Shown: positions 90 to 43,515 of the stretch, one piece after another
How the letters are laid out: each line of letters begins with the position of its first letter
How positions within the stretch are numbered: position 1 is the stretch's first letter
Source: Chloroflexota bacterium
GTDB taxonomy: Bacteria > Chloroflexota > Limnocylindria > P2-11E
DNA: 56,814 nt
Assembly (NCBI GenBank): GCA_021787445.1
Contig: JAJYLV010000001.1
Location: 70,968-127,781, forward strand
Direction of reading: 5' to 3'
Program-made: the position numbers and the translations under genes
The notes under the pieces: generated by a model
The model's database searches: none
The model's input: only the letters and a program-made list of their open reading frames with translations
Told to the model about the DNA's origin: nothing

Positions 90-441
90 CGGATCGCGCC
101 GCCGCGCCCGCGGAAGGGCCACCAGCCCCGGCCAGCGGGGCGTCGGGCGTCTTCCGCGGACGCGAGCGGCACCGCCATGGCCCGGCGCTTACGGCGCCGG
201 AGCTCCGGCGCGTAGACGCGCGGCGGGAGCCGCCAGGGGGTCATCCCGACCCTGGCGGGGGCCCAGCCCTCGCCGCTGGCGACGCTCCCCTGCGCGCGAC
301 GTGGTGGGTGGGCGAGGCTCGGTGCCTGTGGGAAGAAGGCCGTTGCGGCGGACACGAAGTGGGACGATAGAACATCCGTTCACGATGTCAAGAGGGGGTC
401 CGAGCGGCGCTAGGATCGGCCGACGGGAGTTGAAAAGCCTC
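90..441. other. Intergenic stretch with no convincing gene
   Basis: About 350 bases separate the first stop codon from the conserved part of the ligase-like gene. Open frames exist on both strands, but their translations are Arg/Pro/Ala-rich and look like high-GC noise. A TAGGAT hexamer at 411-416 could be a -10 element for the ligase-like gene, with transcription starting near 423. If so, the in-frame GTG at 301 and ATG at 385 are not used. No convincing -35 element is visible. Confidence 0.4.
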
Positions 442-10143: not shown

Positions 10144-11193
10144 ATGAGCACGACGCGCCTCGCGATCCTCGGCGTGACCGGGTCGATCGGACGGCAGGCC
10201 CTGGACGTCGTCGCGGCGCACCCCGACCGCCTCCGCGTGACGCGATCGGGACACCGCGGCGACGACCTCGTCGCGCTCGCCACCGCCGACGACGTCGACC
10301 TCGTGCTCGTCGCGACGCCGGGGGTCGCCGGGCTGGAGGCGACGGTCGCGGCGCTCGAGGCGGGGAAGCGGGTCGCGCTCGCGAACAAGGAGGTCCTCGT
10401 CGTCGGCGGCCACCTCGTCCGGCGGATCACGGGCGGCGCGGGCGACCTCCTGCGGCCGGTCGACAGCGAGCACTGCGCGATCTGGCAGTGCCTCGCCGGT
10501 GTGCAGAGCCGGGACGTCGCGCGGGTGACGCTCACCGCCTCGGGCGGCGCCTTCCGCGACCTGCCCGCGAGCGAGCTCGCCGGAGTGACGCCCGAGCGCG
10601 CCCTCCGCCACCCGACGTGGCGGATGGGCCCGAAGGTGACGATCGATTCGGCGACACTCGTCAACAAAGCGTACGAGGTGATCGAGACGCACTGGCTGTA
10701 CGGCGTCGACTACGACCGCATCGACGTGGTCCTCCATCCCGAGAGCGTCGTCCACGCCCTCGTCGAGCTCGTCGACGGCGCGGTCATCGCGCAGCTCGCC
10801 GAGCCCGACATGCGGCTGCCGATCCAGTACGCGCTCCTCTGGGAGCACACTCCCTCGCGCGCGCCGCGGCTCGACCTGTCGCGCGCGCGCGGACTGACGT
10901 TCCGAGGCGCCCCCGACGCCGAGCGCTATCCCTGCTTCGACCTCGTGCTGCGCGCCGCACGGAGCGGCGATGCAGGCGCCCTCATCGGCGTCTCCGCCGC
11001 GGACGAGATCGCCGTCGAGCGCTTCCTCAGCGGGGAGATCGGCTTCACGGACATCGCCGGGACGCTCCGTGCCGGGATCGCCGCCGCCGAGAGCGTGCCG
11101 CTGTCGAGAGATCCGTCGCTCGAGGAGATCCGCGCCGCGGATCGCGCCGTACGCGCCGCCCTCGCCGGCGAGGCGACGGCGGCGAGGGCCTGA
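10144..11193 (+). CDS. dxr: 1-deoxy-D-xylulose 5-phosphate reductoisomerase, compact form
   Basis: Converts DXP to 2-C-methyl-D-erythritol 4-phosphate with NADPH, the committed MEP-pathway step; ispG is also in the window. The 349 residues keep GVTGSIGRQALDVV, ALANKEVLVVGG, the metal-binding VDSEH, TASGGAFRD, HPTWRMGPKVTIDSATLVNKAYEVIE and HPESVVH. The NADPH-binding domain is unusually short: between RLRV and the DLVLVATPG strand there are about 20 residues where typical Dxr has 55-60, so roughly 35-40 residues are missing in frame, and the usual AAG(K/R)N loop reads RSGHRGD. ATG 10144 follows cdsA by seven bases. The stop overlaps rseP (TGATG). Confidence 0.93.
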   Translation: MSTTRLAILGVTGSIGRQALDVVAAHPDRLRVTRSGHRGDDLVALATADDVDLVLVATPGVAGLEATVAALEAGKRVALANKEVLVVGGHLVRRITGGAGDLLRPVDSEHCAIWQCLAGVQSRDVARVTLTASGGAFRDLPASELAGVTPERALRHPTWRMGPKVTIDSATLVNKAYEVIETHWLYGVDYDRIDVVLHPESVVHALVELVDGAVIAQLAEPDMRLPIQYALLWEHTPSRAPRLDLSRARGLTFRGAPDAERYPCFDLVLRAARSGDAGALIGVSAADEIAVERFLSGEIGFTDIAGTLRAGIAAAESVPLSRDPSLEEIRAADRAVRAALAGEATAARA

Positions 11194-24594: not shown

Positions 24595-26685
<2,091 letters not shown>

Positions 26686-40741: not shown

Positions 40742-41077
40742 ATGCGACCGGGGGACCTCCGCCGCGCGCTCGCGCTCGTCCGGCGCCGCACGCACCGCGG
40801 CCCGCCGCTGCGCGTGCGCTTCATTGAAAAGGCCGACTGCCACCTGTGCGCCGACGCCTACCGCGCACTGCGGCGCGTCGCCCTCGACCGCCCGCTCGAG
40901 ATCGACCGCGTCGACATCCAGGGCGCGCCGCCGGAGGTGCACGACCGCTACGTGCTGCGGATCCCGGTCCTCGTCGTCCGCGGCGAGGAGCTGGACGTCG
41001 CGGGGCTCGACGACAAGGCGATCGCGCGCTGGCTCGCCGAGGTCGCGCCGCAGGGCTGGAACGGCGACCGCCCCTAG
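40742..41077 (+). CDS. Glutaredoxin-like (DUF836-type) thiol protein
   Basis: A 111-residue protein with a thioredoxin fold. After about 23 basic residues comes VRFIEKADCHLCADAYRALRRV, holding a CxxC redox pair, and later YVLRIPVLVVRGEELDVAGLDDKAI with the cis-Pro motif IPVL. This matches the glutaredoxin-2-like/DUF836 group. ATG 40742 is 17 bases from the divergent sulfurtransferase start; an internal start near the conserved domain is possible. The pairing with a rhodanese suggests thiol or persulfide handling. Confidence 0.85.
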   Translation: MRPGDLRRALALVRRRTHRGPPLRVRFIEKADCHLCADAYRALRRVALDRPLEIDRVDIQGAPPEVHDRYVLRIPVLVVRGEELDVAGLDDKAIARWLAEVAPQGWNGDRP

Positions 41078-41103
41078 ACCGAGCAAGGGGGGACCGATAT
41101 GAT
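41075..41103 (+). promoter_or_regulatory. Predicted sigma-70-type promoter of the recombinase gene
   Basis: TAGACC (41075-41080, four of six -35 bases) and TATGAT (41098-41103, five of six -10 bases) are separated by exactly 17 bases. Transcription would start near 41110. The -10 is embedded in a dyad CCGAT-ATG-ATCGG (41094-41106). It is the best-formed promoter I can see in the window. Confidence 0.5.
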
Positions 41104-41105
41104 CG

Positions 41106-41117
41106 GAACGATCGTTC
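41106..41117. promoter_or_regulatory. GAAC-GATC-GTTC palindrome, LexA-box-like operator
   Basis: A perfect 12-base palindrome of the GAAC-N4-GTTC form bound by LexA in Firmicutes and Actinobacteria. It begins two bases after the -10 element and covers the predicted start point, the position expected of a repressor site. The centre GATC differs from the preferred RNRY. A second, weaker dyad AACAT-N7-ATGTT (41152-41168) lies just before the recombinase start. Confidence 0.5.
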
Positions 41118-41130
41118 GCTCGGAGGCTCG

Positions 41131-41175
41131 ATGGCCATCTTTCTTCTAACGAACATTTCCGGCATGTTTAGGTGA
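41131..41175 (+). CDS. 14-residue leader peptide overlapping the recombinase start
   Basis: ATG 41131 is preceded by GGAGG (41122-41126) with a four-base gap, a good initiation site. It encodes MAIFLLTNISGMFR and stops at TGA 41173-41175, which overlaps the recombinase GTG 41172 as GTGA. The recombinase itself has no Shine-Dalgarno sequence, so translation coupling through this peptide would explain its expression. The DNA here is markedly more AT-rich than its surroundings. Confidence 0.5.
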   Translation: MAIFLLTNISGMFR

Positions 41176-42143
41176 GCGACGCTACGCTCAGCGAGCTGAC
41201 CGCGTCCTATCTCGACCAGCTCGCGCTTGCGGGCCGGTCCCCGCGGACGATCGATCATTACCGCCGCGGCCTGGACGAGTTCGCGGCGTTCGCCGCGCGC
41301 CACGGCGTGACCGATGACGGACCGGCGACCAAGATCACGCAGGGTCTGATCACCTCCTACCAGCTCCACCTCGCCGAGCGGCGCGGCCGCGACGGGCACG
41401 CGCTGTCGCTCGCCGCCCGGAACCTCCACGCTGCGGCTCTGCGCGGTCTCCTGCGGCACGGTATCCGCCTCTTCCAGCTGCCCCTGCCGCCTCCGGACGT
41501 GGTCGTCGTCGCCAAGGTCGGCGATCGGACGATGCGACGAATGGACGTCAAAGACTTCGAGAGGCTCCTCGAGGCGGTCCCGAGGGGGCCGAACGCCGTG
41601 CGTGACCGCGCGCTGCTACAGGTCCTCTTCGCCACAGGGTGCCGCGTCTCGGAGCTGTGCACGCTCACGCGAAGGCGCGTCGACCTGCGGACGCGCGAGG
41701 TCGAGGTCATCGGTAAGGGCAAGAAGGTGCGCGGGACCTTCCTCACGCCCGACGCCGCGACGGCGCTGAAGCGGTACCTCGACAGCCGGAAGGACGAAAG
41801 CCCGCATCTCTTCGTGTCGCGGCAGGAGGTCAGACGGCCGCAGGACCCGAAGACCGGCGAACGCAAGCCGGTCAAGGGGATCTTTCCGCTTACGACGCGC
41901 AGCGTGCACATGATCGTCTCGCACCTCGCCAAGCGTGCGGCGCTCCCGGACGACGTTTCGCCGCACTGGTTGAGGCACGGACGCTTGACGATCATCGCCC
42001 GACATTCGGGGCTTCTCGCCGCACAGGAGCTTGCTGGCCACGCGAGCCCACAGACCACGCGTAGGTACACGCGGATCACATCAAGCGAGCTCAAGCGCCA
42101 CTTCGACGAAGCTGAGCGGCGAGAGAAGCGGGCGCGAGGGTGA
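41172..42143 (+). CDS. Tyrosine recombinase/integrase
   Basis: A 323-residue site-specific recombinase. The N-terminal SAM-like domain (about 1-100) has LTASYLDQLALAGRSPRTIDHYRRGLDEF. The catalytic domain holds the Arg in FATGCRVSEL, the Lys in IGKGKKVRG, the HWLRHG box, LAGHASPQTT and the tyrosine nucleophile in RRYTRI, so all active residues are intact. Length fits XerC/XerD or a phage/transposon integrase, but HWLRHGRLTII departs from the usual LRHTFAT. No att sites or cargo genes are visible beside it. It follows a leader peptide, promoter and LexA-like palindrome and is convergent with the MFS gene. Confidence 0.92.
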   Translation: MSDATLSELTASYLDQLALAGRSPRTIDHYRRGLDEFAAFAARHGVTDDGPATKITQGLITSYQLHLAERRGRDGHALSLAARNLHAAALRGLLRHGIRLFQLPLPPPDVVVVAKVGDRTMRRMDVKDFERLLEAVPRGPNAVRDRALLQVLFATGCRVSELCTLTRRRVDLRTREVEVIGKGKKVRGTFLTPDAATALKRYLDSRKDESPHLFVSRQEVRRPQDPKTGERKPVKGIFPLTTRSVHMIVSHLAKRAALPDDVSPHWLRHGRLTIIARHSGLLAAQELAGHASPQTTRRYTRITSSELKRHFDEAERREKRARG

Positions 42144-42162: not shown

Positions 42163-43515
42163 CTAGGAGATCGTCGCTACCCTCTGCTCTCCGAGCTCCT
42201 CGAGGGATAGTCCCTTCGTCTCCTCCGCGAGCGCGAGGACGACGATGGCGGTCAGCAGGACGAGCCCGGTGAAGGCGGCGAACACGCCGCCCTGGCCGAG
42301 CGACGGGACGAGCAGCGGCACGGCGAAGGGCGCGAGGATGCCGAAGGCGCGGCCGATGGCCGCCGCGGCGCCCGAGCCGCCGCCGCGGATCGCCGTCGGG
42401 TACGACTCCGGGGTGTACGTGTAGACGACGCCCCATGCGCCGAGGTTGAAGAAGGACAGCAGCGCGGCCCACGTGAAGGCGAGCGTGCCCGTCCCGGCGT
42501 TGCCGAAGAGGAAGGCGGCGGCGGCGGTCCCGACCAGGTAGACGACAAGGGTGGCCTTCCTCCCCCAGCGGTCCACGAGCCACGCCGCGCTGAAGTACCC
42601 GGGCACCTGCGCGATCGTCGAGACGAAGAAGAACTCGTTGCTCCGCACCTCGGTCAGCCCGCGCGCCGCGAGGAGGCTCGGCAGGTACGTGAACACGCCG
42701 TAGTAGGTGAACGTGATCCCGGCCCACAGGAGCCAGAGCATCAGCGTTCGCTTGGCGAAGGCACGTGACCAGAGGTCGGCGAGCCCCACTTTCGGCGAGG
42801 GCAGCGGGGCGATCGCGCGCGCGACGGTGATGAGGGGCGCCCCCCCGGCGCGCTCGACGCGGCGCACGACGGCGTCGGCCTCGCTCGTCAGGCCCTTCGC
42901 CGCGAGGTAGCGCGGCGACTCAGGCAGCGCGCGCCGCAGGTACGCGACGTAGAGCGCCGGCAGGCAGCCGACGAAGGTCGCGCCGCGCCAGCCGAACGCC
43001 GGGATGACGAAGATCGCGATGAGGCCCGCGAGGATCGTGCCGTAGGCCCAGAAGGACTCGAGGAGCACGATCATCCGCCCGCGCTTGCTGCTCGGCGATA
43101 GCTCGGAGACGAGCGTCGACGCGACGGGCAGCTCTCCCCCGAGGCCGAGGCCCGCGACGATCCGGGCGGCGACGAAAGTCTCGAACGTCGGCGCCAGGGT
43201 CGTGAGGAGGCTGCCGATCGAGAAGAGGACGAGCGTGGCCTGGAAGACGGTGCGCCGGCCGTAGCGGTCGGCGAGGCGGCCGGAGACGGCGGCGCCGAGG
43301 AACATGCCGATGAACCCGGCGCTGGCGATCCAGGGAACGAGCGCGGCGCCGAGGTGGAAGTCGTCGCGGACGGGGGCGACGATGAACGCGACGAGGATCA
43401 CGTCCATCGCGTCGAACATCCAGCCGAGGCCGCTCACGACGAGGAGCCGGCGGTGGAACGCGTTGAGGGGCACGGCGTCGAGCCGGGCAATGAACGACGT
43501 CGCGCTCACGCCCAT
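42163..43515 (-). CDS. MFS transporter, AAHS/sugar-porter-like
   Basis: A 450-residue, 12-helix carrier. Between helices 2 and 3 is SGRLADRYGRRTVF, and the sixth-helix loop has RRALPESPRYLAAKG (PESPR motif). The repeat of motif A in the second half is DRWGRKATLV, and YTPESYPTAIRGGGSG follows near helix 10. These fit the metabolite:H+ symporter (aromatic acid, sugar, SV2-like) branch, importing an organic solute. The substrate cannot be read from sequence. ATG 43515 is directly preceded by TAGCGT. It stands between the recombinase and asd. Confidence 0.88.
   Translation of the reverse strand: MGVSATSFIARLDAVPLNAFHRRLLVVSGLGWMFDAMDVILVAFIVAPVRDDFHLGAALVPWIASAGFIGMFLGAAVSGRLADRYGRRTVFQATLVLFSIGSLLTTLAPTFETFVAARIVAGLGLGGELPVASTLVSELSPSSKRGRMIVLLESFWAYGTILAGLIAIFVIPAFGWRGATFVGCLPALYVAYLRRALPESPRYLAAKGLTSEADAVVRRVERAGGAPLITVARAIAPLPSPKVGLADLWSRAFAKRTLMLWLLWAGITFTYYGVFTYLPSLLAARGLTEVRSNEFFFVSTIAQVPGYFSAAWLVDRWGRKATLVVYLVGTAAAAFLFGNAGTGTLAFTWAALLSFFNLGAWGVVYTYTPESYPTAIRGGGSGAAAAIGRAFGILAPFAVPLLVPSLGQGGVFAAFTGLVLLTAIVVLALAEETKGLSLEELGEQRVATIS

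Follow-up and report, generated by a model that had tools for sequence, protein, structure and literature searches.

How is a tyrosine recombinase gene controlled when a promoter, a LexA-like palindrome and a short reading frame running into its start codon lie directly in front of it? We examined this question in the window, the whole analysed stretch of 56,814 nucleotides from the genome of an uncultured Chloroflexota bacterium. The sequence-only reading had proposed a DNA-damage-induced recombinase gated by a leader peptide. In our analysis the control region appears to have been rewired locally and recently, and it does not look like a conserved leader-gated switch. The best explanation of the whole, which we hold with evenly balanced confidence, is a lineage-private SOS-type operator and a coupling leader placed before a swapped-in recombinase.

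Recombinase gene and the elements in front of it

The gene (41172..42143, plus strand) encodes a XerC/XerD-like tyrosine recombinase of 323 aa, assigned to clade A, with intact catalytic residues. The PF00589 match reached 106.8 bits, and R158, K182, H265, R268, H290, and Y299, whose roles were assigned by motif position, were invariant across five clade A members (alignment A1). The XerC, XerA, and XerD models matched over the full length, and XerD (1a0p) was the closest solved structure. XerC, XerD, and XerA (PDB 1a0p, 5hxy) are the best sequence relatives and resemble this gene in having a fixed chromosomal locus; unlike housekeeping Xer genes, however, it has given way to distant relatives there again and again. 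It also missed all curated cut-offs by far (XerC 151.8 against 335, XerA 133.8 against 220, XerD 125.2 against 330, XerS 62.3 against 267), so the scores do not support an equivalog assignment to any of the four. A phage or plasmid origin was likewise rejected, as only distant matches were obtained, all below 60% identity. True orthologs, with 62–67% identity, were found in only four other genomes of the class of 177; their named records are Chloroflexi metagenome bins.

The sigma70-type promoter TAGACC-N17-TATGAT (41075..41103, plus strand) showed 9 of 12 consensus matches, with the −35 at 41075–41080, a 17 nt spacer, and the −10 TATGAT at 41098–41103. TAG, the first three bases of TAGACC, also ends the glutaredoxin-like gene upstream. 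This was the sole sigma70-like match in 40900–41300, where shuffled sequences gave an expectation of 0.0. The palindrome GAACGATCGTTC (41106..41117), a probable LexA box, begins 2 nt past the −10 and spans the predicted start point near 41110, from which the predicted 5′ UTR would run about 21 nt to the leader ATG. The Shine-Dalgarno (SD) site GGAGG (41122..41126, plus strand) lies 4 nt ahead of that ATG, a slightly short spacing. By direct reading, the 14-codon leader frame MAIFLLTNISGMFR (41131..41175, plus strand) consists of ATG GCC ATC TTT CTT CTA ACG AAC ATT TCC GGC ATG TTT AGG TGA, and its TGA (41173–41175) overlaps the recombinase GTG at 41172 as GTGA. This GTG is the first possible start, with TAG as the preceding in-frame codon, and the letters before it hold no SD of its own. 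An AT-rich block with the inverted repeat AACAT-N7-ATGTT (41146..41172, plus strand) aligns with the promoter that lies next to the start in the orthologs, or may be a recombinase site. No terminator-like site was found in a scan of the leader region. The promoter, palindrome, GGAGG with ATG, 14-codon frame, TGA/GTG overlap, and SD-less GTG were all present as the sequence-only reading had described them.

LexA motif of the lineage and the box at the recombinase

Its position before lexA genes identifies GAAC-N4-GTTC as the lineage's LexA box. A perfect copy preceded each of the 27 lexA genes that the family and class yielded, 40–88 nt upstream of the match to the DNA-binding domain. In this genome, strong boxes occurred at lexA (C100), uvrB, an ImuA/RecA-like gene, an ATP-dependent DNA ligase gene (window 370), and a DnaB-type helicase gene. 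The motif type that the sequence-only reading had given for the palindrome is borne out by the lexA genes and by the repair genes of this genome. A genome scan had also been proposed, and it returned boxes at lexA and repair genes but none within 400 bp upstream of recA. The positional survey gives this Chloroflexota class a well-defined LexA motif.

The pattern occurred at 14 places genome-wide, compared with 6 for the reversed control pattern. In a 402-kb sample it was found 10 times, compared with 0, 0, and 3 for spacers of 1, 7, and 10, which have the identical codon-phase class. The core is thus about tenfold above phase-matched controls and well above chance in the genome, while its two occurrences in the window (0.59 expected from dinucleotide shuffling) are unremarkable. 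These genome statistics cover the 402-kb sample and pattern searches; the host draft comprises 2.51 Mb in 185 contigs. The score matrix was built from lexA and genome box sites, and the sample contains seven of this genome's eight training boxes. The eighth strong site in the sample, L225 (16.4 bits), lies outside the training set. Eight strong boxes of 16.4–27 bits stood clear of the background of the sample, and leave-one-out scores of the eight training boxes were 17.7–27.2. The strong box at window 366–385 (20.7 bits) lies ahead of a DNA-ligase-like ORF starting near 388. Another strong box (L001, 1501–1512) lies 15 nt ahead of the DnaB-type helicase ORF, an unusual SOS target.

The recombinase box GAACGATCGTTC scored 12.0 bits, compared with 16.4–27.0 for strong sites and 13.2 and 11.8 for unexplained sites. 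Its core is identical to the LexA box of the genome (exact GAAC-N4-GTTC at 41106). The G immediately before GAAC was absent from the 27 lexA boxes and the eight strong boxes of the genome. The gap between the −10 and the box is 2 nt here and 1 nt at several other boxes of the genome, and the recombinase promoter was the best of the box-bearing set. No box was present upstream of the four true orthologs and 13 further positional homologs from other clades (0 of 17; best score 3.0), and the 122-bp control region found no match in 28 relatives. The orthologs compared belong to other genera, so conservation, and any selection on the elements, is judged here between genera, with a single genome of the species in the comparison. 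The palindrome and leader had been expected to persist in close relatives if functional, and their lack of conservation in the orthologs at hand speaks against that claim in its original form. LexA control of the recombinase is favoured by the motif type and by the operator placement after the −10, but conservation argues against it and the score of 12.0 is marginal. On balance we consider it rather probable that LexA binds the predicted box at 41106–41117.

Integron integrases (IntI) are under SOS control through a LexA box that overlaps the −10 (PMC3108266), and they are the closest parallel: a tyrosine recombinase promoter with a LexA operator at the −10 or start point, which is predicted here and by which DNA damage would increase recombination. 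The window box differs in being of the GAAC-N4-GTTC type and private to one genome. The recombinase also lacks adjoining gene cassettes and fails the integron-integrase model (37.1 bits against a cut-off of 265), which excluded that assignment. Gram-positive-type SOS regulons share the GAAC-N4-GTTC core (PMC11442139) and resemble the present genome in the palindrome, the autoregulated lexA, and the uvrB and ImuA-like members. They differ in that the present host is a member of the Chloroflexota, its recA carries no box in the upstream interval given above, and membership of the recombinase is marginal. Should the box prove functional, a tyrosine recombinase has come under SOS control in a lineage beyond the known integron cases, by a local and recent gain, and the gain of such control becomes testable.

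Leader frame and leaderless starts

TANNNT about 12 nt ahead of the start is the signature of leaderless (TA-led) genes in high-GC bacteria (PMC3160421). Measured from candidate starts in the 402-kb sample, TANNNT peaked sharply at −15 to −12 (8, 6, 6, and 11 occurrences, compared with about 1 per position), and SD sites peaked at −13 to −10. This genome has starts of both types, leaderless and SD-led. The recombinase orthologs showed the common pattern TTGNNN-N17-NATGAT-TAGGTGA-GTG, in which six to seven nt separate the −10 from the start. The leaderless-geometry promoter before GTG scored 9 in G019, G018, and G006 (reached by 0.3–0.7% of local positions) and was weaker in G014, with a score of 7 (8% of local positions). 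Such promoters were also observed before several clade B and B′ homologs. From these patterns we infer a leaderless promoter directly before the start in at least three of the four orthologs. The window GTG scored only 4 of 14, a value that 83% of local positions reach; this copy lost the arrangement and has an SD-led upstream frame instead. The simplest history is that the lineage of the window lost the start-proximal promoter and now uses the upstream one.

The SD-led ATG leader was absent in all four orthologs, and its start, SD, and peptide were all unconserved. In G019 (L016) an SD-less ATG frame ends at the equivalent place, and G014 (L019) has an SD-less frame of 8 codons. G018 (L017) has no ATG start for a leader, and G006 (L018) has a stop inside the aligned frame. 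The frames end alike across clade A (MFR, MVR, MIR, LIR) because of the conserved DNA block NATGNTTAGG, which makes better sense as a −10 region. Frames of five or more codons that are led by an SD and abut a start were found at 15 of 5000 random positions (about 0.3%) and at 6 of 259 called genes; given this base rate, one such frame per window is unsurprising. The RNA of 41110–41220 folded worse than the shuffle mean (z = +1.12), and attenuation by RNA structure was rejected, as folding was not beyond chance. We also rejected the leader as a frameshifted N-terminal extension of the recombinase, since the orthologs start at their own GTG and their upstream frames are unrelated.

Of the coupled, gating leader proposed earlier, the SD-led frame with its stop overlapping GTG stands, but conservation and RNA structure gave it no support and its base rate is ordinary. 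The SD-less GTG alone is not evidence of coupling, because leaderless-type starts are common in this genome. Translational coupling is nevertheless the simplest reading of the predicted recombinase mRNA. Nothing in the sequence points to a sensing or gating role of the peptide; the frame may load ribosomes for GTG by coupling. Most likely the leader is a ribosome-loading frame only, with a functionless peptide.

Recombinase exchange at the locus and its control

Throughout the family the recombinase is flanked by a rhodanese-glutaredoxin pair on one side and an MFS gene on the other, with recA about 15 kb away. Its conserved neighbours in the window are the glutaredoxin-like (DUF836) gene on the left (40742..41077, plus strand) and the MFS transporter gene on the right (42163..43515, minus strand). 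Recombinases of clades A, B, and B′, each supported in the tree, alternate at this one chromosomal site, where species have exchanged them. The congeners of the window genome have B′ on the opposite strand. Clade A occupied it in G000, G006, G014, G018, and G019 (five genera), clade B in genera 4, 5, and 8, and clade B′ in the window's own genus and the sister family. The window and G001 showed 87% DNA identity up to 41049 and again 87% from 42163. Between these flanks the window carries an A gene on the plus strand and G001 a B′ gene on the minus strand, and the two recombinases are 40% identical. In G018 the A gene ends 70–140 nt before homology with B genomes resumes at 78–90% identity. The same gene (L046, upstream of 6077) starts just behind TTGACACATCGGTCGCACCC, which is near-identical to the promoter region of G020's clade B gene; this suggests that the exchange took place directly after the existing promoter. 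Genomes of the family that lack a recombinase, looked at for empty sites, are drafts with one or both flanks absent or split between contigs. The survey also yields a locus at which related recombinases take each other's place with precision.

In G019 an ORF with a LAGLIDADG-like motif (L045, 9661–10305; weak Pfam match) overlaps the end of the clade A recombinase. It is followed at 10362–10499 by a decayed 46-aa clade B C-terminal remnant, in which the catalytic tyrosine reads asparagine. An endonuclease VII-type HNH frame adjoins the B′ recombinase of G004 (L051, 1401–1961). Free-standing endonucleases of this kind could drive recombinase replacement. In L196 a 37-nt stretch from the 3′ coding region of the recombinase, around its catalytic tyrosine, occurs as a direct repeat of 95% identity (35–71 and 2931–2967). 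The two copies bracket 2.9 kb downstream of the clade B gene; the repeat is a possible attachment site. Cassette or module arrays at the loci of relatives were rejected, as repeats other than this one were mostly coding-type similarity. Element ends flanking the window recombinase were also rejected: its 5′ and 3′ flanks share no 10-mer, and the AT-rich block has no second copy in the window.

We propose that clade A replaced clade B′ in this lineage, or the reverse, and that recombinase expression was rewired. The SOS-type promoter probably arose with or after the swap. Transcription from the upstream promoter would read through the probable LexA operator, replacing a promoter directly before the start codon. 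Ribosomes would load at GGAGG and the ATG at 41131, read the 14 leader codons, and start again at the overlapping GTG; re-initiation is proposed because the recombinase has no ribosome site of its own. LexA would dampen recombinase transcription in undamaged cells, and DNA damage would raise it.

It is possible, although doubtful, that the box is a chance or dead one, that transcription from TAGACC-N17-TATGAT is constitutive, and that the leader is an accidental by-product bringing the ribosome to the overlapping GTG. This fits the marginal score, the unfavourable G before GAAC, the unconserved box and control region, and the rate at which SD-led frames abut a start by chance. CGATCG words are also frequent in the genome, with ACGATCGT occurring 36 times in 402 kb. 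Against it, an exact core exceeds the phase-matched controls about tenfold, and the site is placed where the LexA operators of the genome lie. A quite unlikely reading makes the window mRNA leaderless too, with the promoter in the AT-rich block (41140–41168) and the upstream promoter and leader irrelevant. The shared pattern of the orthologs and the TANNNT peak at −15 to −12 in this genome favour it, but the −35 of the window has decayed to TTTCTT, and a start point at GTG does not fit because GTG lies only 3–4 nt past the hexamer.

The AT-rich block (41146–41172) might instead be the recombinase's own attachment site or dif-like core, which would explain both the conserved block and the repeated precise swaps; we regard this as very unlikely. 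XerS and XerH act on sites near their own genes. Here AACAT-N7-ATGTT was found once against 0.00 expected, CAT-N7-ATG is kept in two orthologs, TTAGG is kept in all five clade A members, and the swaps end near gene ends. However, the inverted repeat is kept only partly in the orthologs, where the arms are not inverted repeats. The single-copy block and the flanks without a common 10-mer also count against such a site, and the conserved bases are equally explained by a −10 element. In a wider reading, the glutaredoxin-MFS locus would be a dedicated site of whole-recombinase exchange in the family, helped by resident homing-type endonucleases or a 5′-end recombinase site, with the newly installed recombinase under SOS control and a ribosome-loading leader. 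We consider this combination rather unlikely.

RecA (window 24595–26685, 696 aa) is intein-interrupted: splicing-region models matched, and the RecA match was broken at residue 199–206. RecA was split in the same way in G006 and G012.
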